A DNA stretch of 50,160 bases, from NCBI GenBank assembly GCA_903925005.1, contig CAIYDX010000083.1, positions 1 through 50,160 of the forward strand. The letters are read 5' to 3'. The first letter of the stretch is position 1. Every line of letters starts with the position of its first letter. A program made the position numbers and the translations under genes. The stretch is from an uncultured Geobacteraceae bacterium (lineage in GTDB: Bacteria; Desulfobacterota; Desulfuromonadia; Geobacterales; Pseudopelobacteraceae). Below the pieces are notes generated by a model. It was not told the DNA's origin. It was given only the letters and a program-made list of their open reading frames with translations, and ran no database searches. This document shows, one piece after another, positions 1,261 to 37,360 of the stretch.

Positions 1261-3249
1261 TTAATTAAATGACTTGAGCAGAGTTTTAAGTTCATTCAGT
1301 GTGTATGGTTTGGGTATAACACCCTTGAAGCCGTATGAACGATAGTTGGACATTACAGCCTCATTCGTATAACCGCTGGATACGACGACAAAGGCATTGC
1401 TGTCATATTCAAGCAGCTTTCCGACCGCCTCAACGCCTCCCATCCCCCCTGGAATAGTCATATCCATAATGGTGATTTCAAAAGGGGTCCCGGCTTCCTT
1501 GGCCTCCCGATACATCGAAATCGCCTCGGCGCCGTCACATGCGAGTGAAGCTGAATACCCGAGCGTAGTAAACATTTCATAGGCAACATCCCTGATAATC
1601 TGCTCATCATCCATTATCAACACACGTGTAAACTCTTTTAATACATCAGTTCCGTCACCAAGTGCTGTAATAACAGGTGTTGCCAATGATTGAACGTAAC
1701 GCGCCGCCGGCAAAAAGAGTGTGAAGGTGGTACCTTTATCCAGCTCAGACGAAACGGAAATCAATCCGCCATGGTTTTTGATGATGGAATAGCAGGTAGC
1801 CAGCCCGAGTCCGTTACCAGATGGTTTTGTGGTAAAATAAGGGTCAAAAACACGATGAAGATTTTCTTCTGAAATGCCGCATCCGGTGTCTTCAACAGTT
1901 ATTTCAATGTATTCACCGGGTGTTATTGGGAAAACAGTATCGTTGTCGATGTATATATTGTCAACCCGTACGACTACAGAACCCCCGTTCGGCATGGCTT
2001 GGCAGGCATTGACCATAAGGTTGTTCAGTACCTGGATTATCTGTCCTGTATCGATGTCAGCCGAATTGAGCTCTTCAGCTATTTGGGCATCGCAGATCAC
2101 ATTGGAACCGGCGAAACTGATGTCAATAGCTTCTCTTATGACTGGCGCCAGCGTAGTAACTCTGCGAACCGGTTTACCCCCACGAGAGAAGGTCAAGAGT
2201 TGCTGCGTAAGTCCTTTTGCTCGGTAACACCCCTTCTCGGCGTTTGACAGAAATCCCTGAACCTTTTCATTGTCCTTTGTTCTGTTATTGGCAAGCGAGA
2301 TGTAGCCGACAATGGAGGTAAGGATATTGTTGAAGTTATGCGCTATCCCACCAGCCAGAACTCCTATTGATTCCAGTTTTCTGCTCTTGAGCAATTCATC
2401 TTCCATCAGTTGCCGGGCTTTTTCAGCATTAATGCGTTCTGTGATTTCAAGTTTTAGGTGTGAATTAGTCGTTTCAAGTTCGCACGTCCGCTCTGCAACC
2501 TGTTTTTCCAGCTGCTCATGGTATTTTAAAAGCAACCCGTCACGTTCCTGTATCTGAGCCAGCATCTCATTCAAACTGTCGGAAAGAGCACCGATCTCAT
2601 CTGCATTGAAACGTTTCGCACGGATGCTGTAGTCTTTATTGAGCGAGATGGAACGTGCCACTTCAGACAGGTTATTCAGTGGTTGCGCAATGAATCTCAT
2701 CAGTCGCGAAGCGATAATATATGAGAAGCAGGATGCCAGAAGCACTACCAGCAAAACCAGAGATAAAAAATTAAGTTGCCGTGTTGCCAACGACGTGAGG
2801 TTATATCGGAGGTAAATCGTGCCGATTTTCTCGGTTTCAAGATTAATCGACCGGAAGACATGGATGAAGCTCTGATCGAAACTCTGATTATTGTCCCGTG
2901 CGGAAGGCACAGGTTGCCCGACAGTCCGCTGGCGGACATAGAGGGCTATTACTGTGCCGTCTTTACGGTAAAGCGCCGCCATTTCAATATGTGGATGGGC
3001 TTTCAGGGCCTGGAGAATTTCTCCGGCGCTCTTTTTATCATCAAAGACAAGAGCGGCTGTGCTGGTATTTGCTATAGTATCGGCGAGAACCGTCGCCCCA
3101 CCAATCATGTCATTTCGCTCAGACACATAGTCATGTATCATGAAGATGGAACACGCAAGTACTAGAGAGGCACTGCTGGTCAACATAAAAGAGACCAGCA
3201 GTTTCTGCTTGAGAGTCAGGCCGCGGATATAATTACGTAGAGAAGTCAT
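1261..3249 (-). CDS. Membrane hybrid histidine kinase (periplasmic sensor-HAMP-HisKA-HATPase-REC)
   Basis: 662 residues. TM1 is at about 18-38 and TM2 at about 160-182; they bound a periplasmic sensor of about 120 residues resembling the CHASE8-type sensor of YfiN cyclases. HAMP (183-236) and a coiled coil lead to the phosphoacceptor H304 (GGIAHNFNNIL), an HATPase domain with DTGCGI and GLGLA boxes, and a C-terminal receiver with phosphoacceptor D596 and conserved K647. Its ATG overlaps the stop of the upstream YfiR-like gene by 4 bases (ATGA), indicating translational coupling. In Pseudomonas, YfiR binds the periplasmic part of the cyclase YfiN; here a kinase takes the place of the cyclase. 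The ligand and the final output of the receiver are unknown. Two of the three components of a YfiBNR-like system are suggested by this operon. Confidence 0.88.
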   Translation of the reverse strand: MTSLRNYIRGLTLKQKLLVSFMLTSSASLVLACSIFMIHDYVSERNDMIGGATVLADTIANTSTAALVFDDKKSAGEILQALKAHPHIEMAALYRKDGTVIALYVRQRTVGQPVPSARDNNQSFDQSFIHVFRSINLETEKIGTIYLRYNLTSLATRQLNFLSLVLLVVLLASCFSYIIASRLMRFIAQPLNNLSEVARSISLNKDYSIRAKRFNADEIGALSDSLNEMLAQIQERDGLLLKYHEQLEKQVAERTCELETTNSHLKLEITERINAEKARQLMEDELLKSRKLESIGVLAGGIAHNFNNILTSIVGYISLANNRTKDNEKVQGFLSNAEKGCYRAKGLTQQLLTFSRGGKPVRRVTTLAPVIREAIDISFAGSNVICDAQIAEELNSADIDTGQIIQVLNNLMVNACQAMPNGGSVVVRVDNIYIDNDTVFPITPGEYIEITVEDTGCGISEENLHRVFDPYFTTKPSGNGLGLATCYSIIKNHGGLISVSSELDKGTTFTLFLPAARYVQSLATPVITALGDGTDVLKEFTRVLIMDDEQIIRDVAYEMFTTLGYSASLACDGAEAISMYREAKEAGTPFEITIMDMTIPGGMGGVEAVGKLLEYDSNAFVVVSSGYTNEAVMSNYRSYGFKGVIPKPYTLNELKTLLKSFN

Positions 3250-3821
3250 GGCAGATCACGCGCTGTTTTTGACAAACCGAGCAGTTTGGAGCTTATTTCA
3301 AGACCGTTCCGTTTGGCCGCCACGGGATTTATTTCAAAGATCAATCTATTGTCGGAGGTGATAAACCTGATTATGCCCCCCTGCTTAATGAACGCAGAAG
3401 AGTCGCCGATGGTAAGAACCGGTTTGCTTGCAACAGCTCCCAAAATTTTTTTAGCTTGTGCCGGGTCTGTTGATTCTCCAATAAAAAGGAGGTGGCATTT
3501 ATCCGCACCCAATATACCTCGATATCGGATGGTTTGAATTTGACGCCCTTTGGTGACGCTTTGTACAAGGGATTCAAGCGCTTCGTCCAGCATCCTGTCA
3601 TCCACAACACATGCCCGGAATGGAGAGTAATCGTTTTCAAAAGCGGTTGACGGCCATAATACGAACTTGGTGAAATTATAGATGAAAGCGGCTTTAACTT
3701 CGTGCGTTGCCGCACTTATGGATGTTTCATACGCTGCCAAGACCGGAGCCGGTGCAAGGAGTGTCATGGCAAACAATGGGAGTAACAGCGTAATCACCGG
3801 TATGGCTTTTAAAATGTCCAT
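3246..3821 (-). CDS. YfiR-like periplasmic regulator (DUF4154 family)
   Basis: 191 residues, with a signal peptide at about 1-29 (ends PVLAA). The mature N-terminus VKAAFIYNFTKFVLWP is the signature opening of the YfiR/DUF4154 family. A segment reading IKQGGIIRFI and a final NPVAAKRNGLEISSKLL also fit the family. In Pseudomonas aeruginosa, YfiR is a periplasmic repressor that holds down the diguanylate cyclase YfiN. The gene sits between a TonB-dependent receptor (13-base overlap with its 3' end) and a CHASE-like hybrid kinase (4-base overlap). The coupling suggests that it transmits or gates a signal in the periplasm between these two membrane proteins; that link is inference. Only two cysteines remain in the mature part, so the disulfide pattern differs from the P. 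aeruginosa protein. Confidence 0.85.
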   Translation of the reverse strand: MDILKAIPVITLLLPLFAMTLLAPAPVLAAYETSISAATHEVKAAFIYNFTKFVLWPSTAFENDYSPFRACVVDDRMLDEALESLVQSVTKGRQIQTIRYRGILGADKCHLLFIGESTDPAQAKKILGAVASKPVLTIGDSSAFIKQGGIIRFITSDNRLIFEINPVAAKRNGLEISSKLLGLSKTARDLP

Positions 3822-5818
3822 GCCGCCTTACCATAGAAACTGCGTTCCGTCTGTGCAGCAGGATTTCCGAACATGTCCGGGCCAAATTCCAGGCGCTTCG
3901 GCTCAAGCAGGTTTTGCCCCACCAGCGACAGTTCCAGATTTTTGAGAGGTTTCCAGGCGATTCGGGCATCCAAGGTGACATAGTCTGACACGGCGGGATC
4001 AGGAAGAGCTCCAACATATCGGAGCCAGAGGTCACATTTCACATTGCCGGGAAGATTCAGCCCCGGCCGGAAGGATAACTGGTGGCGTGCCGACGTGTCG
4101 GCATATGAGAATGCCCTGTCCTGAGGTAAAGAAGAGGTGGAGCTGACGGAAAGATCAAGATATGAGTATAAAAGTGCAAGCTCAAGCCAGGCCAGCGGGT
4201 GCCAGTCAACTGACAATTCGCCGCCTTTGCCTGTTGCCGTGGATGTGGCAGCTGCGTTTATAGGGATAACTGTCGGCGGTGTCCCCCCTTGCGGTGTGCC
4301 CTGGACAACGCCGATCAGGGAACTGTAATCGTTGTAGAAGAGCGCCAGGTCAAATGAAAGTTTCGGCAACGGCTGGTAGCGATATCCGGCTTCGTAGGCA
4401 ATCAATTTTTCAGATGGAAGCCTGCTGTCCCCTAACAGACGAACTTCCGTCACCGGCGGAATAAAGCCGATCATAGACGAAATAGTGGTCTCTGCCCGCG
4501 AGGGGGTGCGCACGGCGCGAGAAACGGCACTCCAGAGAGTGTGTTGTTCGTGAGGGGTCCAGAGCAGCCTGGCGGTCGGCATCATCTCCCATCCGGTTGT
4601 GTCGTTATTCTCAACACGGGAACCAAGAATAAGATGGAGTGCTTCGGGCAGCAGAGTTATGTTGTCCTGCAGAAAGGCGCTGAAGAGATGATCTGTCCTG
4701 CCGCTGGGGATGAAGGCCGGGATGATGGTTGGATCGCCGTTCAACCGGTCTGAGTTCAGCCGGTATCCGGCACCCCAGACAATCTTCTGTACGGCGCCGA
4801 CGGCAAAGGTGTGCTGCAGATCGAGGTCGGCGGTATCCCTGGCCTCATGATGGTTCAGGTCGGAATCAAACCTCTTTCTGTTGGAGTTCCGGTCATAATA
4901 GAGTTGTACCGAGAGATTTGAAGTGTCTGAAAATGTGCTGTTCCAACGCCCCAGTATATTTCCACCCTGATATAGCTCCACACCGGCTCGGCCGTAATAA
5001 ATGTCCCCCTGCAGGGTAACGTCGTTCCTGGAGTTCAAGCGCCAATCGCCACGGAAGCCTCCCCGCCAGTCGCTCCAGTATCCGTCCATGTCAGGAGTAT
5101 CTACAGGTGGCTGACCATCCCGGTAAAAGTATTTGCCGTATGCCCGCAGATAGCCGTTTTCGCCGCTTTTTCCACCGTACCGTATTCCGGTTGCAGTCCG
5201 CTCCCAGGTCCCGCCGGAAGCGGTTATCAGGCCGCCTTGAGTATCGCGGGCATGTTTGGTGGTTATATTGATTACTCCGTTTACCGCGTTGGCACCCCAG
5301 AGGGTGGCCCCCGGACCACGTATTACCTCGATCTTTTCGACATCTTCCAGCATGATTTCCTGTGCATTCCAGTAAACGCCGGAAAACACCGGATTGTAGA
5401 GGGTGCGGCCATCTTGAAGCACCAGCAGCTTATTGGAAAATCGTCCGGCAAAACCGCGGATGCTTATCGCCCACTTGTTGCCGTCCATTCTTGAAACCTG
5501 GACGCCTGGTGCCAGTCGTAGAGCTTCCGGCAGCGAAGTGACTCCGGAGCGGATAATGTCATCATTGGTAATGACATAGATGGCGGCCGCTGTCGTAAAG
5601 ATTTTTTCCGGTTGTTTTGAAGCCGAATAAACCTCTACCTGCATCAGTTCCTCAAGAGATAAATTTGCCAGTATATTGGTTGTTGTTGCTTCCGGAGTTT
5701 CTCCGCGAGCTTCGTGCGGCGGCAGCTGAAACGAAAAGAATATTGCAAAAGCCGCAATATGAGATATAGAGAGGGTTAGCGAGATCGAACGAATGGAGGC
5801 AGGGAGTTTGTTGAGCAT
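3809..5818 (-). CDS. TonB-dependent outer-membrane receptor
   Basis: 669 residues. A signal peptide is likely, with cleavage near residue 39 (HEARG). The region LSLEELMQVEVYSASKQ (about 53-69) is the usual start of the plug, followed by plug motifs such as RDGNKWAISIRGF-like text and VEKIEVIRGPGATLWGANAVNGVINI. A 22-strand-type beta-barrel follows and ends in a terminal Phe (AAWTF), the outer-membrane assembly signal. The family takes up siderophores, cobalamin, sugars or other scarce ligands with energy from TonB-ExbB-ExbD; the ligand here is not predictable. There is no N-terminal secretin/TonB short extension of the FecA type, so signalling is not by the FecR route. The next two genes (YfiR-like protein and hybrid kinase) overlap in series, suggesting one mRNA and a shared task. 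Confidence 0.9.
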   Translation of the reverse strand: MLNKLPASIRSISLTLSISHIAAFAIFFSFQLPPHEARGETPEATTTNILANLSLEELMQVEVYSASKQPEKIFTTAAAIYVITNDDIIRSGVTSLPEALRLAPGVQVSRMDGNKWAISIRGFAGRFSNKLLVLQDGRTLYNPVFSGVYWNAQEIMLEDVEKIEVIRGPGATLWGANAVNGVINITTKHARDTQGGLITASGGTWERTATGIRYGGKSGENGYLRAYGKYFYRDGQPPVDTPDMDGYWSDWRGGFRGDWRLNSRNDVTLQGDIYYGRAGVELYQGGNILGRWNSTFSDTSNLSVQLYYDRNSNRKRFDSDLNHHEARDTADLDLQHTFAVGAVQKIVWGAGYRLNSDRLNGDPTIIPAFIPSGRTDHLFSAFLQDNITLLPEALHLILGSRVENNDTTGWEMMPTARLLWTPHEQHTLWSAVSRAVRTPSRAETTISSMIGFIPPVTEVRLLGDSRLPSEKLIAYEAGYRYQPLPKLSFDLALFYNDYSSLIGVVQGTPQGGTPPTVIPINAAATSTATGKGGELSVDWHPLAWLELALLYSYLDLSVSSTSSLPQDRAFSYADTSARHQLSFRPGLNLPGNVKCDLWLRYVGALPDPAVSDYVTLDARIAWKPLKNLELSLVGQNLLEPKRLEFGPDMFGNPAAQTERSFYGKAAWTF

Positions 5819-5872: not shown

Positions 5873-6355
5873 CTATTTGCCGAGGGCTTCTTCAATTTTT
5901 TTCTGATCAAACCCAACAATGATCCTGCCGTTAATCAAAAAAGTCGGGGTGGAATCTACCTTCTGTCTGCGCGCGGTTTCGAACTGTTCTTCCTGTAATT
6001 TTATTCCCTTGGCGGTTATCCCCTCAAACTTCTGGACAGAATCCATTCTTCCGGACATGACTTCACGATAAGCAGCGGCGCGATCTGTTTGAGATAAAGC
6101 GTATTGGGCTTTTTCCTTCGCTTTGGGATGGCGGGGGAGCGGAAAGAAGAGTACATGGCGGGTGACATCGCTCCGTCCGTCAAAATATTTGGATGCTTTG
6201 CGGCAGTAGGGGCAATCGGGATCGGTGAACTCAACGACCGTCTTGGGACCGTTCCCAATGGTAATTGTTTTGCTGAAATCAAGATCGTTTGCATCTGCAG
6301 GTATTGATGTCGCGGCAACAATCAGCAACGTCAGAATCAGAAGTATCAGTTTCAT
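5873..6355 (-). CDS. Periplasmic thioredoxin-fold protein, DsbC/DsbG catalytic-domain type
   Basis: 160 residues. A signal peptide spans about 1-22, then a thioredoxin fold with active site C48-P-Y-C51 (DPDCPYCRK) and a cis-proline loop STPTFLING near the C-terminus. The family rearranges or forms disulfides in exported proteins. It lacks the N-terminal dimerisation domain of classical DsbC/DsbG, so it may work as a monomeric oxidase, reductase or isomerase. I chose the ATG at 6355, since GTGGGA lies at ribosome-site distance; an in-frame GTG at 6367 would add four residues. It lies 30 bases after the receiver-kinase gene and 54 before the TonB receptor, on the same strand. Substrates are unknown; heme-protein maturation or the neighbouring exported proteins are possible. 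Confidence 0.85.
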   Translation of the reverse strand: MKLILLILTLLIVAATSIPADANDLDFSKTITIGNGPKTVVEFTDPDCPYCRKASKYFDGRSDVTRHVLFFPLPRHPKAKEKAQYALSQTDRAAAYREVMSGRMDSVQKFEGITAKGIKLQEEQFETARRQKVDSTPTFLINGRIIVGFDQKKIEEALGK

Positions 6356-6385
6356 TACATATCCCACCAGTACAAGTTTGTAGTA

Positions 6386-7552
6386 TTATGGACAGCAGGG
6401 CAAAAGAATGACAAATTCGCTCCCCTGTCCCGCTTCACACTCTGCCCAGATTAGACCGTGAAAACTTTCAATAGACAGTCTGCAATATGCCAGTCCCAAC
6501 CCGGCCCCGCTCCGTTCCCGCTCCGTTTTACGTGGAAACTGTGTGAAACGGTCAAATATGCGTTCCAGCTCTCCCTGGGGGATGCCATTGCCGGTGTCAC
6601 TAACCGCCAATTTGACAAAACAGGCATTATCCAAAGTACCGGGTGGAATCGGCGCATAAGATGGTATTTTCAGCGCCAGCATTTCATCTTTGGTAATTCG
6701 TTTGCTTGAAACTACAATTTTGCCCCATTCAGGGGTGAATTTCAAGGCGTTGCCGAGCAGATTCCCCAATACACGGGAAAAAGCGTTTTTGTCTACAGCA
6801 ATATTCGAGGAGTGCGGTTCCAGCTCGACAGTAAGTTCAATGCCGTCATGTCTGGCTGCCCTGGCAAATTGATCGGAAATTTTGCTGATGAGTTCCTGAG
6901 CGTTGTAACTATTGATCGCCATCTGGATTTTTCCGGCTTCAAACTTCCTGATATCAAGAAGGTTGTCGATCATGACGACAACTTCATTGCAGCTGTCGAT
7001 AGCCGATTGCAGATATTCCTTCTGCTCCTCGTTGACATTGCCGAGGCACCCCTCGCGAACGATATCGATTGATCCTATTACGGCGGTCAGCGGGTTTTTC
7101 ATGTCATGCGAAAGCATCAGGATGAAGTCTTCTTTTTCCTTCTGCAATAACTGTTTCTCTAATCTTTCCAAGCGATGTGCACGAGCCCGTTCAATCCTCT
7201 GCAGCATATCTTCAAAGGCAAATGGTTTGGAAATATAATCTTCCGCGCCATTTCTCATGCATTTTACGGCCACCTCTTCGCTGCCCTGTCCGCTCATCAT
7301 GATAACCGCTGCGTCGCATCCCGAATCTTGAAGGCGGTTCAGAACCGTTACACCGTCGAGTCCCGGCATATTGATGTCGAGCAGAATAACCGAGAAATCA
7401 TTTTCGGTCACTATCATATCGAGCGCTGCTGAACCATCTAATGCCAGAGATGAATCAAACCCTTCATCGTCCAGATACTCTTTCAGAACCAGGCCGACTT
7501 CCTGTTCGTCATCAACAATCAAAATCTTATCCGGCGTTTTGGGGGCTAGCAT
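6386..7552 (-). CDS. Receiver-histidine kinase (REC-HisKA-HATPase), cytoplasmic
   Basis: 388 residues without membrane segments. An N-terminal receiver (about 8-122) has acidic residues D14/D15, phosphoacceptor D59 (LLDINMPG) and K109. A helical linker leads to the HisKA box with H149 ([15 protein letters not shown]) and an HATPase domain (DTGNGI, AGLGLA). Receiver-first kinases are controlled by phosphorylation of their own receiver by another kinase, so this is an intermediate in a phosphorelay rather than a primary sensor. Its ATG lies within the last codons of ispD (7-base overlap, ATGCTAG), so translation is probably coupled. No dedicated output regulator is adjacent. A link to isoprenoid synthesis is not implied by sequence. 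Confidence 0.9.
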
Positions 7553-8268
7553 TGCTTTCGCTCTCTTTCCATAACTGTCAGGAATGCTTCAGCCAGAACC
7601 AGATCTTCAGGCGTTGTAATTTTTATATTGCGATAATCGCCCGTAATAATATGCACTTCTCCTCCTATACGTTCAACCAGAGATGCGTCATCTGTGCCGA
7701 TGAAACCTTCTGACTCTGCAGATAAATGAGCAGTGAAAATTTTATCGAAACGGAAAGACTGCGGCGTTTGCGCCTGCCAGAGAGATTCCCGGGGAGGCGT
7801 GTCACTAACGATTCCGTTGCTCGCTATTTTAATTGTATCTTTAACAGGGACGGCCGCTAATGCGCCATCATAGAGCCGGGCACTGTTTATGGAATTGATC
7901 AGCAGGCTTTCAGTTATCAACGGCCTGACACCATCGTGAATCAGGACGACATCATCGTCGGAAATCTGCTCCCGCATGGCCCGCAACCCGTTCATAACCG
8001 AGTTCTGACGTTCCTTGCCGCCAGGAATGATAGCAGCAATCTTCAGAAATCCACAGGCTTCGACTACATGCTCCCGGCAGTAGGGGATCTCATCGGCGGG
8101 TATGACAAGGTAAATGGAATCGATAAGCGGCGACGCTTCAAATACAGAGATAGTACGGGCAACGATCGGAAGGCCGTTCAGATGCAGATACTGTTTGTTG
8201 ATGGAAGCGCCCATGCGCTTCCCCATGCCGGCGGCCGGTATTAGTGCTATAGATTTGAATGTAGCCAT
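7546..8268 (-). CDS. ispD: 2-C-methyl-D-erythritol 4-phosphate cytidylyltransferase (IspD)
   Basis: 240 residues. IspD transfers CMP from CTP to methylerythritol 4-phosphate in the cytoplasm, the third step of the MEP route to isoprenoids. The nucleotide-binding start [14 protein letters not shown], the K in NKQYL, HDGVRPL and GTDDASLVE match the family. I chose the ATG at 8268 because GGAG lies 9 bases upstream and the family begins here; an in-frame extension to 8343 adds 25 residues with no family similarity. It is not fused to IspF, and ispF is not adjacent. It lies between the GntR regulator and a receiver-kinase on one strand, so its expression may depend on the GntR-gene promoter at 9042-9069. 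Confidence 0.95.
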
Positions 8269-8339
8269 TAAATAATTCTCCGCAAGCAGTATATCAGCTT
8301 CTTGCAGAGATGCAATATCTGAGTTGGCATCAGGCGGGA

Positions 8340-9008
8340 TCAACTAATTTTATCTGCTGTAGCGCCGTCCATCAGCACCCGGCCTCCATACTCGGCGTTC
8401 TTACGAACCAGGGTTTCGGCCAGATCGGCATCTTTTCTCCGGAACGCATCGATGATTTTCTCGTGTTCCTGTACTGAAACCACCATTCGCCCCGGAAGAC
8501 TAAGTGAAGTAAAACGAAGACGTTGAAATTTTGTAACCAGCCCTGCTATTAATTCATGAAGTTTTTCGTTGTCGGCGGCTTTGATAAACAGCTCGTGAAA
8601 GTCACTGTGAACTTTGAAAAAATGCTTGATATCACCGATTTTAGCAAGTTCGGCCAGTTTGTCGTTGATTGCCTGAAGGCGATCCAGCTCTTTTTCGGAT
8701 AAATTATCACAGGCCCTTCGTGCCGCATACCCCTCCATGATGCTTTTGATGGCGTAAAACTCCTCAACGTCCTTAGGGCTGAATTCGCTGACCACGGCTC
8801 CGCGGCGGGGAATTACCGTCAGATATCCTTCCGATTCCAGTTGGCGGAAGGCTTCGCGGATTGGAGTGCGGCTGATCCCGTAGCGATCGGCCAGTTCGGG
8901 CTCGGAGACCCGGCTGCCCGCCTTGAGACTGCCGGAAACAATGGCATCGCGGATATTTTCGAGAATTTTTTCGCGCAACGTGAGATGCTTTTCCATCGGC
9001 TTTTTCAT
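8340..9008 (-). CDS. GntR-family transcriptional regulator, FCD subfamily
   Basis: 222 residues from the ATG at 9008. An N-terminal winged helix (about 8-75) contains the GntR recognition region [20 protein letters not shown]. The C-terminal all-helical FCD ligand/metal domain (about 85-215) has HSDFHELF and a later His in VQEHEKII, consistent with metal binding. FCD regulators sense small carboxylates or similar metabolites and repress nearby genes. The longer reading frame upstream begins with TTG at 9059 and would run through the promoter and operator, so it is not favoured. A near-perfect 17-bp palindrome with ATAC/GTAT half-sites overlaps the -10 region, which suggests autorepression. 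The effector is unknown. Divergent to the K+ channel gene. Confidence 0.88.
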
Positions 9009-12021: not shown

Positions 12022-12093
12022 TGCGTTTCGGCAGGACTGCATTCTGTCAGATGTGCTGAAGTGCCATATCCAGGCGATTGCGAGGTGCAGGTC

Positions 12094-13752
12094 GTGACGG
12101 AGAAAACTACATCCACAAAAGACAAGCTTCAACAGCTATGGGACAGCTTTGCGGAGCAGCTTCCACAGAAGGTGGAACAGATCAGGGAGGATTGGAGCAG
12201 GGTACAGAGTCTCCGGGTGGACTCGAAGGAGATGAAGAGTTTCACGCTCATGCTCCATAATCTGGCCGGAACGGCGCCATCGTTCGGATTTACGGCTATG
12301 GGTGTCGCAGTACGGGATATCGAATCACTCATCCAGAACATGGAGGGGGATTCGCTTCCCTCTCGGCATGTAAAAGAGAAGATCGGGACAAAAATAACTG
12401 AATTGGCGGCATTATCCGCCATACGTTCTGAACCGACTGATCTTCAGACCGGTGCGCTCCAGGTTGAAGCCCGGTATGCCACCTCAGGAGAAATCGGCAG
12501 GCTTATTTTTGTCGTTGATGACGATAAGGCGCTGGTCGAACACCTTGCAGTACAGATAGAATGCTTCGGTTATGACGTACATGCTTTTAATGACATAAAG
12601 GAGATGAAAAAAGCGCTCAAGTTCTCCACGCCGGAAGTGATAATCTCTGATATGAGTTTCCCGGATGGCAATTTTGCTGGTGCGGACGAGATAATGGCGC
12701 TGAGACGCGAAGAAGGTCTTGGCATTCCGGCTATCTTCATGTCCCAGCGAAATCAGCTTGAAGCTCGCATCAAGGCGGCTAATGCCGGTGGAGAAGCCTA
12801 TTTCCTTAAGCCGGTAGCAATGTGCGACCTGATTGAGAAACTCGACAATTTGGTGTTCGGTGCAGTTCAGGAGCCGTATCGGATACTCATTGTCGATGAT
12901 GACCAGGAACTGTCGGAACTCCATGCCGCTATCCTCAAAGAGCATGGCATGGTCGTCAGAGTAGTCAACGATCCGATGCAGATATTGAAACATATGGTTG
13001 GATTCAGGCCCGACTTGGTGCTGCTTGACATGTATATGCCGGGGTGCAATGGGGATGAACTGGCACGGGCGATCCGTCAGATAGAAGATTACAACGGTAT
13101 TCCGATTGTTTTTCTTTCCGCAGAGACCTGTGTGGACAAGCAGGTGGACGCCATCCGTATGGGTGGCGATGATTTTTTGACCAAGCCGATTCGTCCTGAG
13201 TTTCTGATCTCGTCAATTAATATCAGAGCCGAGCGGATGCGGATTATGCGTACATTCATGGTGCGGGACAGCCTGACCGGACTCTTCAATCTGGTCAATA
13301 TACAGGCTCAGTTGGAGACGACTCTGGCTCGAGCAAAAAAGAACAATTCCCCCGTTGTCTATGCACTCATAGAGCTGGACAATTTTCAGGCGGTGAACGA
13401 TACACATGGCTATCTGGCCGGCAATCGGGCCATAGTCATTGCCGCCCTGCTTCTCAAACGGCGGGTCAGGTCCGCCGATGTGGTCGGCAGATATGGAGGA
13501 CAGAAGTTTGTTGTGATCATGCCGGATATAGACGCTGAAGCGGCCTTTACGGTTCTAGACGAGATTCGCACCAGCTTTGCCAAGATCCTGCACCGATGCC
13601 ATAGCGGTGAGTTTTATCTGACCTTAAGCGGGGGATGTGCCGTTTATCCGGATGCCAAAGATGTCGCCTCCCTCAATAGTTTATCCGGAAAGGCTCTTGC
13701 CGAAGCCAGAGATATGGGGAGGAACCGTATCGTGATGGCAGGGAGCCAGTAA
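12094..13752 (+). CDS. Hpt-REC-REC-GGDEF protein with degenerate GGDEF site (GGQKF)
   Basis: 552 residues from the GTG at 12094, preceded by GAGGTG at good spacing; an in-frame GTG at 12061 lacks a ribosome site. Order of domains: Hpt (about 1-105; probable phospho-His 55 in LHNLAGTAPSFGF), REC1 (about 125-245; VVDDD, SDMSFP, LKPV), REC2 (about 255-375; VDDDQ, LLDMYMPG, TKPI), and GGDEF (about 390-550). Both receivers and the Hpt look intact. The cyclase signature at 468-472 is GGQKF instead of GG(D/E)EF, so the metal-binding acidic residue and the adjacent Glu are lost. The protein is likely a phosphorelay hub whose GGDEF domain no longer makes c-di-GMP but might bind GTP or a partner. No membrane segment. 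Confidence 0.87.
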   Translation: MTEKTTSTKDKLQQLWDSFAEQLPQKVEQIREDWSRVQSLRVDSKEMKSFTLMLHNLAGTAPSFGFTAMGVAVRDIESLIQNMEGDSLPSRHVKEKIGTKITELAALSAIRSEPTDLQTGALQVEARYATSGEIGRLIFVVDDDKALVEHLAVQIECFGYDVHAFNDIKEMKKALKFSTPEVIISDMSFPDGNFAGADEIMALRREEGLGIPAIFMSQRNQLEARIKAANAGGEAYFLKPVAMCDLIEKLDNLVFGAVQEPYRILIVDDDQELSELHAAILKEHGMVVRVVNDPMQILKHMVGFRPDLVLLDMYMPGCNGDELARAIRQIEDYNGIPIVFLSAETCVDKQVDAIRMGGDDFLTKPIRPEFLISSINIRAERMRIMRTFMVRDSLTGLFNLVNIQAQLETTLARAKKNNSPVVYALIELDNFQAVNDTHGYLAGNRAIVIAALLLKRRVRSADVVGRYGGQKFVVIMPDIDAEAAFTVLDEIRTSFAKILHRCHSGEFYLTLSGGCAVYPDAKDVASLNSLSGKALAEARDMGRNRIVMAGSQ

Positions 13753-32445: not shown

Positions 32446-33828
32446 CTAATCGTTCTGATCAGATAATTCTACATTTGTAACTTTAACCCGGTTACGCCCG
32501 GCAGCCTTTGCCGCATACAATCCCTGATCGGCAAGAGTGAGCAGTATTTCTGGTTTTGCGGCCTGATTGGGGATAATGTTGGCTACGCCAAGGCTTATGG
32601 TTACATGAGGCGCCACGTCGGAAGCAGAGTGGGGAATTGCCAGCGCCAGCACCGATCGGCGTATCCGCTCGGCCAGGTCGGTAGCGGCATTCAGATCGGT
32701 TGTTGGCAAAAGCAGGGCAAACTCCTCGCCGCCGTAGCGTACCGCAATATCTCCAGGGCGATGAGCTGATTGGTCAATTGCCGTGGCAACGGCTTTAAGG
32801 CAGGCATCTCCCTCCTGGTGGCCATAGGTGCCGTTGTAGCGTTTGAAGAAGTCGATATCCACAAGGATGATCGATAATTCCCCACATTCTCTCAACATGC
32901 GTCGCCATTCTCTATCAAGAGCCTCATCAAAGAAACGGCGGTTGCTGATCCCGGTAAGTCCATCCTTCATGGCCATGTTTCTGAGCTGTTCCTCTAACTG
33001 TTTCTGTTCGGTGATGTCACTGATGATCCCGGTAAACAGCATCTTGTTGTTTACGTGCATCTCACTCACACCCAGCCGCATCGGAAAGGTTGTGCCATCC
33101 TTGCGCAGGCCGGTCACTTCCTTGCCGACGCCTATGATTTGCGCTCGACCGGTCTTAATAAAATCATTAACATATCTGGCATGCTCGGAAAGATACGGGT
33201 CCGGCATCAGCACATCGATGTTTTTGCCAATTATTTCGTCCGCGCGGTAACCGAAAATACGCTCCGCGGCCTTGTTGAATTCCTCGACGAGAAGGTCAGT
33301 ATTAATTACAAGAATTGCCTCAACAGCTGTGTCAACGATGGAACGAACCCTTTCGGAACTCTCCTGAAGCGCAGTTTCAACGGCTTTTCTACGCTCAATT
33401 TCTTTTATTGCCAGCTGGTGAAGCCGACGACTCTCTTGTGCTGTCAACATCAGATCGGTAACATCCTGAATGGACGCCAAGGCGTATACGCCATTATCGA
33501 TAACAATCGGGGTTACAGTTGTCTGCTGAATTCGCTTCTGCCCGTCAGCCCGGACAGAGGGGATAAGATGAGGATGCAGCTGTGGTGAAAAAATCACCGG
33601 TGGCCCCCCCTCGAAAATCGGACGGATTCTTCCGGCATAGCGTATCGCGCCCAGGTCGGGGTACAAGTCTGTTACCGGATTGCCGACGATCTGTTCGCGT
33701 TGGACCCCGGTCCATTCAGTCAGCAGGCTGTTCCAGAACAGCACTGTCAAATCCGGAGCCAGCACCAGCACCCCAATCGGCAAGGTATCGAGCAGCAGAC
33801 ACATTTGAGCAAATATGTTTGTCAGCAT
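32446..33828 (-). CDS. PAS-PAS diguanylate cyclase (GGEEF, with inhibitory site)
   Basis: 460 residues, no membrane segment. Two PAS domains (about 10-130 and 160-285) precede GGDEF (about 300-450). The active site is R-Y-GGEEF, and an RPGD (R-x-x-D) lies five residues before it, the c-di-GMP inhibitory I-site, so synthesis should be feedback-limited. It makes c-di-GMP from two GTP in the cytoplasm under control of PAS signals. It is the last gene of a three-gene set: receiver (34445-34810), CheC (33837-34439), then this cyclase, with gaps of 5 and 8 bases. That set suggests receiver-phosphatase control of the cyclase pathway. Confidence 0.93.
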   Translation of the reverse strand: MLTNIFAQMCLLLDTLPIGVLVLAPDLTVLFWNSLLTEWTGVQREQIVGNPVTDLYPDLGAIRYAGRIRPIFEGGPPVIFSPQLHPHLIPSVRADGQKRIQQTTVTPIVIDNGVYALASIQDVTDLMLTAQESRRLHQLAIKEIERRKAVETALQESSERVRSIVDTAVEAILVINTDLLVEEFNKAAERIFGYRADEIIGKNIDVLMPDPYLSEHARYVNDFIKTGRAQIIGVGKEVTGLRKDGTTFPMRLGVSEMHVNNKMLFTGIISDITEQKQLEEQLRNMAMKDGLTGISNRRFFDEALDREWRRMLRECGELSIILVDIDFFKRYNGTYGHQEGDACLKAVATAIDQSAHRPGDIAVRYGGEEFALLLPTTDLNAATDLAERIRRSVLALAIPHSASDVAPHVTISLGVANIIPNQAAKPEILLTLADQGLYAAKAAGRNRVKVTNVELSDQND

Positions 33829-35535: not shown

Positions 35536-35889
35536 ATGGGTGTGGAAGTTTATGTGGGACAGATTTCCGGTATGACCACGGAAACTGAAGTGCGGGGCCT
35601 GTTTTCGGTGGTGGGTACGGTTACGTCCGTTCATCTGGTAATAGATCCCGGTTCCGGCGAATTCAGGGGGTGCGGGTATGTCAGGATGTCGACCGAAGAT
35701 GAAGCCAGAGAGGCGATTGATCTCTTGGATGGAGCCAAGCTCGGGGACCGCCTGATCGTTGTAAAGGCGGCCCCGCCAAAAAAAGGTAAGAAGCCGGGCT
35801 CCCACTACGGTGACCGGAGTAGGCCAGGTGAGCGCTCTGGTAATGGCGGACCTGATTCTAGAGGCTATCCGTTAAGAAAAAAACAGTAA
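35536..35889 (+). CDS. RRM-domain RNA-binding protein
   Basis: 117 residues. A single RRM fold (about 2-78) has RNP2 VEVYVGQI (about 3-10) and RNP1 RGCGYVRM (44-51) with the aromatic Tyr in place. The C-terminal tail is basic and Gly/Ser/Arg-rich (about 80-117). Bacterial RRM proteins, best known in cyanobacteria and delta-proteobacteria, bind single-stranded RNA and are often cold or redox regulated. The tail overlaps the 3' end of the convergent diguanylate cyclase gene by 25 bases. The gene follows a receiver gene, but no phosphorylation link is known. Confidence 0.9.
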   Translation: MGVEVYVGQISGMTTETEVRGLFSVVGTVTSVHLVIDPGSGEFRGCGYVRMSTEDEAREAIDLLDGAKLGDRLIVVKAAPPKKGKKPGSHYGDRSRPGERSGNGGPDSRGYPLRKKQ

Positions 35890-37193
35890 TTGTTCTTGCC
35901 GCTCCGTTTTACCTCGTACATGGCGGTATCCGCGCCATGCAACAGCCTCTCCGCGTCTTCGGCATCATCGGGAAAAATACTGATCCCGATACTTGCCCCT
36001 ATCTTGCATTCGACATTACCGATAACAATGGGTTCCGAGAGCTTGGCAAGGATCTTTTGAGCCACATGAGCAGCATCGCTCCGCCCTTTCAGGCTGGTGA
36101 GGATGGCTGTGAATTCATCGCCACCCATGCGTGCGGCGGTGTCCGACGTTCGCAGGGTTGATCTGATGCGCTCCGCGACGAGGCAGAGCAGTTGATCGCC
36201 GGTCTCGTGACCGTGAGTGTCGTTGATGCTCTTGAAGCCGTCCAGGTCGATGAACAGTACACCGCAGCGCCTGCTCTCACGCTTGGCAAGGGAAATTGCC
36301 TGGCTGGTGCGGTCGAAAAACAGCGCCCGGTTGGGCAGCCCGGTCAGGCAGTCGAAATGTGCCATGCGCGCCATCTGCTCCTGAAGCAGCTTGCGCTCGG
36401 TAATATCCTCCTTCACCGCCACAAAATGGGTGATAACGCCGGAGCTGTCCTTGATCGGCGAGATGGATGCCTTTTCCCAGAACAGCCTCCCCTCCTTACT
36501 GAGGTTATGGAACTCCCCCTGCCACTCTCTGCCCGCTTCAATGGTTTCCCACATCTCTCTGTAATATCCCGACGACAGAGTGCCGGCTTTCAGGAAACGG
36601 GGGTTCTGTCCAATCGCCTCTTCTGCGGTATACTCAGTCAACGCATAAAATTTGGGGTTAGCGTATTCAATAATGCCGACTGAATCGGTAACCACGATAG
36701 CCGTAGGACATTGCTCAATGGCCTTGGAGAGTGTGCGCAGGGTGTTCTCAGTCCGCTTCCGCTCGGTGATATCCCGCCAATGGACCAGTTGCACCTTCCT
36801 TCCTCGCAGCGAAATCAGGTTCAGTGATACTTCGACGTAAAACCCGGTTCCGTCCAGGCGGTGATGCAGCCATTCGAAATGCATGTTCTGCCGCTCGAAA
36901 ACCGTTCTGATTATCATATCCGCTTTTTGCGAGGAAGACTGACCATCCGGCTGTATTTCCGGCGAGAAGTAGGAGGGGTGTCTCATCAGCACCTGCTCCT
37001 TTGACGCAGCCCCCAACATGCGGACGGCCGCTTCGTTGCAGTCTACAAAACAGCTGGAATCGTCGATGAGTAAGATCGGGTCCGGTGCTTCGTAGAAAAT
37101 CTGCCGAAAGGTATCTTCACTCTCTTTCAATGCCGCTTGGGTACGTTTGACGTATAGAGTCTTACGTGCTCGGACATTTAATTGTCTGCTCAT
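35865..37193 (-). CDS. PAS-PAS diguanylate cyclase (GGDEF, with inhibitory site)
   Basis: 442 residues from the ATG at 37193, with AAGGG upstream; a longer frame to 37253 is possible. Two PAS domains (about 15-130 and 140-260, the latter with the FWEKASISPIKD wording of PAC-linked repeats) precede GGDEF (about 275-440). The active site is R-M-GGDEF, and RTSD five residues before it forms the I-site. It is predicted to be a working, product-inhibited cyclase in the cytoplasm. Its 3' end overlaps the RRM gene by 25 bases in the convergent direction. It is a single-gene unit. Confidence 0.93.
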   Translation of the reverse strand: MSRQLNVRARKTLYVKRTQAALKESEDTFRQIFYEAPDPILLIDDSSCFVDCNEAAVRMLGAASKEQVLMRHPSYFSPEIQPDGQSSSQKADMIIRTVFERQNMHFEWLHHRLDGTGFYVEVSLNLISLRGRKVQLVHWRDITERKRTENTLRTLSKAIEQCPTAIVVTDSVGIIEYANPKFYALTEYTAEEAIGQNPRFLKAGTLSSGYYREMWETIEAGREWQGEFHNLSKEGRLFWEKASISPIKDSSGVITHFVAVKEDITERKLLQEQMARMAHFDCLTGLPNRALFFDRTSQAISLAKRESRRCGVLFIDLDGFKSINDTHGHETGDQLLCLVAERIRSTLRTSDTAARMGGDEFTAILTSLKGRSDAAHVAQKILAKLSEPIVIGNVECKIGASIGISIFPDDAEDAERLLHGADTAMYEVKRSGKNNYCFFLNG

Positions 37194-37360
37194 GGAACAT
37201 ACCCTTTTGGTACAGAAATCATGGAAAATAAAGCTGCAGAGATCCTGTTGCAATTTATTTACTATTTTAATGAGGAACTAAATTTACTCGAAATAATAGT
37301 TTTAATCCACACAAAATAATGATCGCATCTGTATACGTTTTGATGCCGTTGCCACGCTCT

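Follow-up and report, generated by a model that had tools for sequence, protein, structure and literature searches.

A TonB receptor, a YfiR-like protein and a CHASE8 kinase in a Geobacteraceae bacterium: a conserved neighbourhood and a candidate three-compartment signalling cassette

The closest described relatives of the locus considered here, in which genes for a TonB-dependent receptor, a YfiR-like periplasmic protein and a CHASE8 hybrid histidine kinase follow one another, are the FecA/FpvA-type transducers and the YfiBNR system of Pseudomonas aeruginosa (yfiR-dgcN-yfiB in Escherichia coli). The locus lies in a stretch of 50,160 nucleotides from an uncultured Geobacteraceae bacterium (assembly GCA_903925005.1, contig CAIYDX010000083.1), referred to below as the window. 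In FecA/FpvA-type transducers, as proposed here, a TonB receptor signals inwards via its periplasmic N-terminal part, and these transducers work with FecR and an extracytoplasmic function (ECF) sigma factor. The YfiBNR system resembles the locus in that a YfiR-family periplasmic protein is found beside an inner-membrane CHASE8-HAMP protein (YfiN), an outer-membrane partner (YfiB) serves as the input, and a YfiR face is predicted to be common to both partners; in PMC4655355 the face with which Pseudomonas YfiR binds YfiB is reported to overlap the one predicted for YfiN.

The neighbourhood is already known to NCBI curators, as the names of three NCBIfam families indicate: NF053590 (TOL_0244 receptor), NF053591 (TOL_0243 YfiR-like) and NF053592 (YfiR-associated kinase, HK_near_YfiR_like). 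They cover the three proteins of the locus and, judging by what they are called, its neighbourhood as well, but they offer names only and no mechanism. No paper on a TonB-YfiR-CHASE8 cassette was found in the open-access literature, most subscription journals and preprints lying outside that search, and a term search of the review PMC8846402 returned no YfiR, YfiN or TonB. The original prediction, made from the window sequence, called the function of the arrangement not well described; it needs correcting in that curators already know the neighbourhood.

The cassette in the window and its known relatives

All three genes lie on the minus strand: the receptor (669 residues, 3809..5818) with Plug (79.2 bits) and barrel (122 bits) domains over their Pfam cut-offs, the YfiR-like protein (191 residues, 3246..3821; PF13689, 140.3 bits, cut-off 24.9) and the hybrid kinase (662 residues, 1261..3249). 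The overlaps in series that had been predicted, 13 bases between receptor and YfiR and 4 bases between YfiR and kinase, were confirmed at these coordinates. A hydropathy scan gives one N-terminal hydrophobic stretch each for the receptor and YfiR and two for the kinase (residues 17-35 and 161-179). The kinase carries CHASE8, HAMP (37.3 bits), HisKA, HATPase and C-terminal receiver domains over Pfam cut-offs, with the phospho-acceptor residues His304 and Asp596 present; CHASE8 covers residues 53-147 (2809..3093, minus strand; 62.8 bits, cut-off 27) and the receiver residues 543-658 (1276..1623, minus strand; 56 bits). The prediction of a CHASE8-like sensor is borne out by this profile search, a test set in advance, and residues 16-252 also match the NCBI YfiN family NF007423 (94.4 bits; cut-off 325, not reached). 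Among the matches of a structural model of kinase residues 1-250 (predicted local distance difference test score, pLDDT, 92.8) are an integrative model of WalK, CdgS9 (a LapD-type output domain) and numerous extracytoplasmic sensor domains, and for the YfiR model (pLDDT 89.7) the 15 best PDB matches are YfiR of P. aeruginosa.

Against the NCBIfam trio, the window YfiR passes NF053591 (126.3 bits, cut-off 125) and the kinase passes NF053592 (197.5 bits, cut-off 194), a family that covers the N-terminal sensor part and is also matched, below cut-off, by the GGDEF-EAL effectors described below. The receptor just misses NF053590 (616.4 bits, cut-off 645) with a full-length match over residues 50-669.

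Two further cassettes exist in the same genome. PF13689 has three matches, in the window, on contig C269 and at the end of contig C22, and each YfiR gene has a CHASE8 kinase after it and a receptor before it; the receptor is complete on C269 and truncated on C22, where the contig ends. The C269 cassette (L025:3201-9494) has a receptor about 63% identical to that of the window and a kinase of 794 residues with a terminal Hpt domain, the gene for which overlaps a receiver-sigma54 regulator gene by 4 bases.

These contigs also separate the locus from its relatives. The OmpA family (PF00691) has 13 matches in this incomplete genome, none of them on the three YfiR contigs (C83, C269 and C22), so that no YfiB-type gene was found there; as predicted, a TonB receptor, not an OmpA-like lipoprotein, forms the outer-membrane part. 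Unlike YfiBNR, in which the effector is a diguanylate cyclase, the window encodes a hybrid kinase, and sister cassettes encode GGDEF-EAL proteins, not GGDEF alone; the window YfiR reaches only 40.7 bits on the NCBI sequest_YfiR family (cut-off 85). A FecA-like transducer was also considered and rejected: in agreement with the predicted path without FecR, a Pfam search of the receptor (E up to 0.001) gives Plug and barrel but no STN domain, and the four FecR matches in the incomplete genome lie on contigs C199, C71 and C212, with none on the three YfiR contigs, where YfiR and a CHASE8 kinase stand instead.

Conservation of the neighbourhood and exchange of effectors

The neighbourhood is strongly conserved. 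Stretches around YfiR places from class and phylum searches were annotated with profiles built from the first loci, giving 150 distinct YfiR-like genes found without use of the receptor (10 identical sequences and L198 were left out). The full order receptor, YfiR, CHASE8 effector occurs in 115 of the 150, so the conserved-neighbourhood search that the original prediction had set as a test shows that the architecture recurs. A receptor lies directly upstream in 126 (124 separate genes within 300 bases and two sharing a frame with YfiR) and only downstream in eight more, and a CHASE8 effector lies directly downstream in 129. Within the class, 63 of 146 genomes contain an NF053591 match and, counted by the NCBI families, which miss divergent receptors, at least 35 of 89 YfiR places (90 minus one fragment) have a receptor upstream and a kinase downstream. 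Conversely, YfiR is found within 400 bases of 50 of the 58 receptor matches (E up to 1e-60), and in the phylum 65 of 395 genomes match (E up to 1e-15).

Scanning GTDB with the receptor alignment left 80 loci, which yielded 45 full cassettes after removal of repeats. No YfiR row was obtained for 26 of the 80, at least five of which repeat class-set stretches that do show YfiR (L118, L121, L130, L147 and L156), YfiR being unrecognised in the rest. Judging from record titles, we take these cassettes to come from Desulfobacterota, Deferribacteres, Nitrospirota, Nitrospinota, Planctomycetes, Verrucomicrobia, Acidobacteria and Proteobacteria, many loci being metagenome bins. Among cultured bacteria, Geomonas limicola (L147) has a cassette of the kinase form.

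Gene overlaps recur as well, with counts that depend on a mechanical choice of start codon: exactly 13 bases between receptor and YfiR at 31 of 108 junctions in the first mixed set and 25 of 124 in the larger YfiR-found set, and exactly 4 bases between YfiR and effector at 51 of 96 and 53 of 129, respectively. The recurrence of the 13-base overlap comes from receptor ends of the T-W-x-F type; at the window junction, the start codon of YfiR falls on the codon for Trp. The cassette also occurs on plasmids of Sphingobium and Caballeronia, with an ATP-binding and an EAL protein as the third gene, and the annotation of the Sphingobium plasmid has the same 13- and 4-base overlaps as the window.

Several loci show other arrangements. 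On the mobilizable plasmid pSRL1 of Sphingobium indicum (L197), a full cassette lies behind genes annotated as an ATPase domain-containing and an ATP-binding protein, and on a Pseudoalteromonas plasmid (L198) an IS30 transposase stands directly before YfiR, at the place expected for the receptor. In two Nitrosomonas bins (L142 and L194), several receptors occur in runs beside YfiR-like genes with no adjoining CHASE8 effector, and in L061 and L063 the order on one strand is receptor, YfiR, YfiR, receptor, the first receptor of L063 being a plug remnant in frame with YfiR. The shared receptor-YfiR frames (L075 and L063) were considered as proof of contact and set aside, since only the first part of the receptor is kept and they look like deletion remnants.

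The third gene is exchangeable. The 129 effectors comprise 91 proteins with a kinase ATPase domain, of which 60 also have a receiver, 28 GGDEF-EAL proteins, one of them having a receiver, and 10 that are unclassified. Pfam checks of four GGDEF-EAL effectors found CHASE8, HAMP, GGDEF and EAL in each, and checks of three kinase effectors found CHASE8 together with kinase domains in each. Because kinase and GGDEF-EAL effectors are swapped behind the same sensor, the kinase version resembles a re-wired YfiN. Of 51 kinase effectors, 8 have a GGDEF gene immediately behind them, versus 12 of 375 other genes in the same stretches (Fisher P 0.001), and in L173, L188 and L189 kinase, receiver, GGDEF and EAL stand in one chain behind the sensor; hence the kinase form sometimes leads back to cyclic di-GMP (c-di-GMP). 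Across cassettes c-di-GMP is the commonest recognisable output, and in the first mixed set 64 of 96 cassettes, that of the window included, had no GGDEF or EAL in or beside the cassette. In two Methylobacter loci (L139 and L140), a CHASE8-kinase-receiver-GGDEF protein of about 1360 residues is immediately followed by a receptor of this family, and no YfiR was recognised in the stretch. Taken as a whole, the original prediction stands in part: the CHASE8 sensor and the conservation hold, but it missed the GGDEF-EAL effectors, the three cassettes in this genome, and the kinase forms that are followed by or fused to GGDEF-EAL domains.

Co-variation of YfiR with the receptor tail and the kinase

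What is new here is a co-variation analysis of 150 paired cassettes, kept from 161 triples by length (effective number about 122). Simulated nulls were adopted to retain ancestry, which shuffling destroys: a FastTree tree of the cassettes served to simulate the YfiR columns, with rates and compositions set column by column, and the score of each residue pair was taken relative to the simulations of that pair. The analysis was exploratory, with several variants run, and the limits of the region termed the tail were set after an earlier shuffle analysis. This tail, between signal peptide and plug, comprises receptor residues 45-68 (5615..5686, minus strand) and is the predicted YfiR contact. Aligned receptors share in it a conserved segment, L-S-L-E-E-L-M..V-T-S, and we presume that it holds the Ton box.

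Between YfiR and the tail, 17 and 14 pairs (two runs) exceeded a z of 5, where the simulated mean was near 1. Per 1000 pairs this amounts to 6.2 for the tail versus 0.5 for the plug and 0.5 for the barrel; the tail paired with CHASE8 or HAMP gave 1.5 and 1.4. At z above 4, a stricter gap filter gave YfiR densities of 13.0 for the tail, 6.7 for CHASE8, 6.6 for HAMP and 2.7 each for plug and barrel, and a 20-letter variant gave 9.2, 4.2, 4.7, 2.7 and 1.6, so that the rank order of tail above CHASE8 and HAMP, and these above plug and barrel, holds in both. When the YfiR tree supplied the null, the tail had 1.00 pairs per column, the plug 0.20 and the barrel 0.19. On statistical grounds, the coupling of YfiR with the receptor thus appears to concentrate in the periplasmic tail, not in the plug or barrel. 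Between YfiR and CHASE8 there were 21 pairs, where the simulations averaged 3.8 and reached at most 7. For a YfiR-sensor interface, the third test set by the original prediction, and for repression of the kinase through direct YfiR binding, such co-variation is indirect support at most.

The sign of charge adds a second line of evidence, as a contact favours opposite charges and ancestry has no preferred sign. At |z| above 3, YfiR and the tail gave 10 opposite and three like pairs, an asymmetry reached in none of 200 simulations, and likewise in 1 of 200 with the YfiR tree, 5 of 200 in the main subfamily and 0 of 200 with kinase effectors only. Opposite and like pairs with YfiR numbered 11 and 10 for the plug, 45 and 44 for the barrel, and three and nine for HAMP, and CHASE8 with the tail gave three of each. 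Beyond |z| 4, all four YfiR-CHASE8 pairs were opposite (52-140, 88-140, 179-77 and 52-138), and charge swaps occur, with Lys88-Glu140 in 50 cassettes and Glu88-Lys140 in seven. YfiR residues 52, 88 and 179 also charge-couple to the tail (52-52, 88-52 and 179-56), which suggests, from aligned sequences, competition between tail and CHASE8; receptor tail and kinase are accordingly predicted to compete for YfiR because both couple to the same positions of it, much as YfiB and YfiN probably compete in Pseudomonas. The window itself has Lys at YfiR 52 and 179, Glu at CHASE8 77, 138 and 140, and Glu at tail 56.

We therefore weigh the reading that the cassette is a three-compartment signalling device, with the receptor as input, YfiR as a messenger shuttling between receptor tail and kinase, and the CHASE8 kinase as output, a reading to which we give about an even chance of being right. 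Several observations weigh against it. A recognised adjacent receptor is missing for 16 of the 150 YfiR genes (some at a stretch end) and a recognised CHASE8 neighbour for 21. Depth is low at 150 cassettes, and the tail limits were chosen after seeing the data. The barrel exceeds its simulations under the YfiR-tree null (74 versus a maximum of 59), shows a weak charge asymmetry in the same three variants (13, 8 and 15 of 200 simulations) and is in partial excess under plain shuffles. The tail signal weakens to seven pairs (simulated mean 1.2, maximum 6) within the main receptor subfamily, where HAMP with the tail reaches 3.1 per 1000 (two pairs) versus 3.7 for YfiR. YfiR with CHASE8, at 1.5 per 1000, barely exceeds YfiR with HAMP at 1.2, and since the two are similar per pair, the counts fail to set the periplasmic sensor apart; the YfiR-CHASE8 charges at |z| above 3 (16 opposite, 12 like) are not significant (32 of 200 simulations). 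The window has Ser at YfiR 88 and Asn at tail 52 and thus lacks two of the charged partners. Whole-protein distances (91 cassettes) correlate at only 0.02 for YfiR-plug and 0.14 for YfiR-barrel, versus 0.32 for YfiR-CHASE8, 0.29 for YfiR-HAMP and 0.28 for CHASE8-HAMP within one chain. Barrel-CHASE8 gave 0.32, and the measure was set aside as uninformative. Mutual information against shuffles in the same 91 cassettes gave a weak excess for CHASE8 (4.72 versus 4.38 +- 0.16) and none for plug, HAMP or barrel, and shuffles of the 150 cassettes gave an excess for tail-plus-plug and CHASE8 but not for HAMP.

The low depth, the barrel excess under shuffles and the YfiR-tree null, and the equal coupling of HAMP and CHASE8 per pair speak for a reading in which a transport gene and a regulator pair merely travel together without interacting, the co-variation being residual ancestry or an alignment effect; the presence of cassettes on plasmids fits such co-inheritance too. 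We regard this as very unlikely, as the cassette-tree null keeps ancestry and still leaves the tail far outside it, ancestry would not lead one to expect more opposite than like charges in the tail, and YfiR with the CHASE8 protein YfiN is a known functional pair in Pseudomonas.

The main rival is a ligand relay, in which the receptor only imports a ligand that YfiR binds in the periplasm before changing CHASE8, with no contact between receptor and YfiR. Substrate-binding proteins follow immediately after the YfiR structures among the PDB matches of the YfiR model (ranks 16-18, TMt 0.50-0.59), a resemblance to periplasmic binding proteins also reported for the YfiR fold in PMC4655355, and strongly conserved YfiR residues, including N49, W56, P57, T137, G148, G149 and N165, could line a site. 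YfiR has one lobe only, however, and a relay predicts neither tail-concentrated co-variation nor opposite charges there, which makes it unlikely.

Quite unlikely, in our view, is that YfiR and kinase answer envelope or thiol stress and that the receptor is merely a co-regulated target. The window YfiR keeps Cys71 and Cys109, aligned with the Cys71-Cys110 pair of P. aeruginosa YfiR (of 91 aligned cassettes, 79% retain Cys109 and 51% Cys71), and a gene for an exported thioredoxin-fold protein (5873..6367, minus strand; Pfam), possibly an operon member, lies 54 bases upstream of the cassette. The Cys145-Cys152 pair, which PMC4655355 gives as the disulphide of Pseudomonas YfiR, is absent from the window YfiR sequence. 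Moreover, a homologue search over related stretches found the thioredoxin-fold gene only in the closest relative (L117), and redox sensing leaves receptor adjacency in 134 of 150 YfiR genes unexplained.

Further upstream, 18 bases before the thioredoxin-like gene, a soluble receiver-kinase protein (6386..7552, minus strand; Pfam) is another possible operon member, with an orthologue in the corresponding position of L117. Upstream of the cassette, the GntR, IspD, receiver-kinase and thioredoxin-fold genes (5873-8343) form a nearly contiguous row with it, an arrangement kept in L117, so that the transcript may exceed three genes. An exported LysM protein (289-1188) lies on the same strand 72 bases downstream of the kinase, with no homologue among the related stretches searched. 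Three further GGDEF proteins are encoded in the window (12061-13752, 32446-33828 and 35865-37253; one with two receivers, two with PAS), with no evidence linking them to the cassette. As clues to a ligand, an Rfam scan of the window gave no match at gathering score, and the cobalamin genes CbiD and CbiC at 14.2-16.9 kb were set aside as too distant to argue from.

A proposed switch at the receptor tail and its meaning

In the shuttling reading, a signal would enter at the outer membrane through the TonB receptor, be carried across the periplasm by the YfiR-like protein and be passed on by the CHASE8 hybrid kinase in the inner membrane. By analogy with YfiN in Pseudomonas, YfiR would hold the CHASE8 sensor in one state, and the periplasmic tail of the receptor, with its presumed Ton box, would offer a second place for the same YfiR face; since the partners would bind the same residues, they should exclude each other. 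Ton box exposure changes with ligand in other receptors, which would make the tail a natural switch. Ligand binding or TonB engagement may alter exposure of the tail, move YfiR between receptor and kinase, and so change the phosphorelay. In sister cassettes the same head would drive a GGDEF-EAL protein directly, or a kinase beside or fused with GGDEF-EAL. As the YfiB face and the predicted YfiN face overlap in Pseudomonas, the cassette would follow the same logic, with the receptor tail in YfiB's place. The ligand dependence, the direction of the switch and the target of phosphotransfer in the window are what we infer.

We know of no description of how a TonB receptor lacking STN could report its ligand to the cell. 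The cassette suggests one specific route, down to individual residues, and occurs under at least eight phylum-level names. More tentatively, and with somewhat less than even confidence, we suggest that receptors of this kind form a widespread, unstudied class in which a Ton-box tail and CHASE8 compete for one charged face of YfiR, the ligand or TonB engagement setting whether YfiR sits on the receptor or on an exchangeable effector in the inner membrane, be it a kinase or a c-di-GMP protein. The analysis also supplies a hypothesis of function for three NCBI families that have so far had names only. If true, metal or nutrient capture at the outer membrane would be linked to two-component and c-di-GMP signalling.

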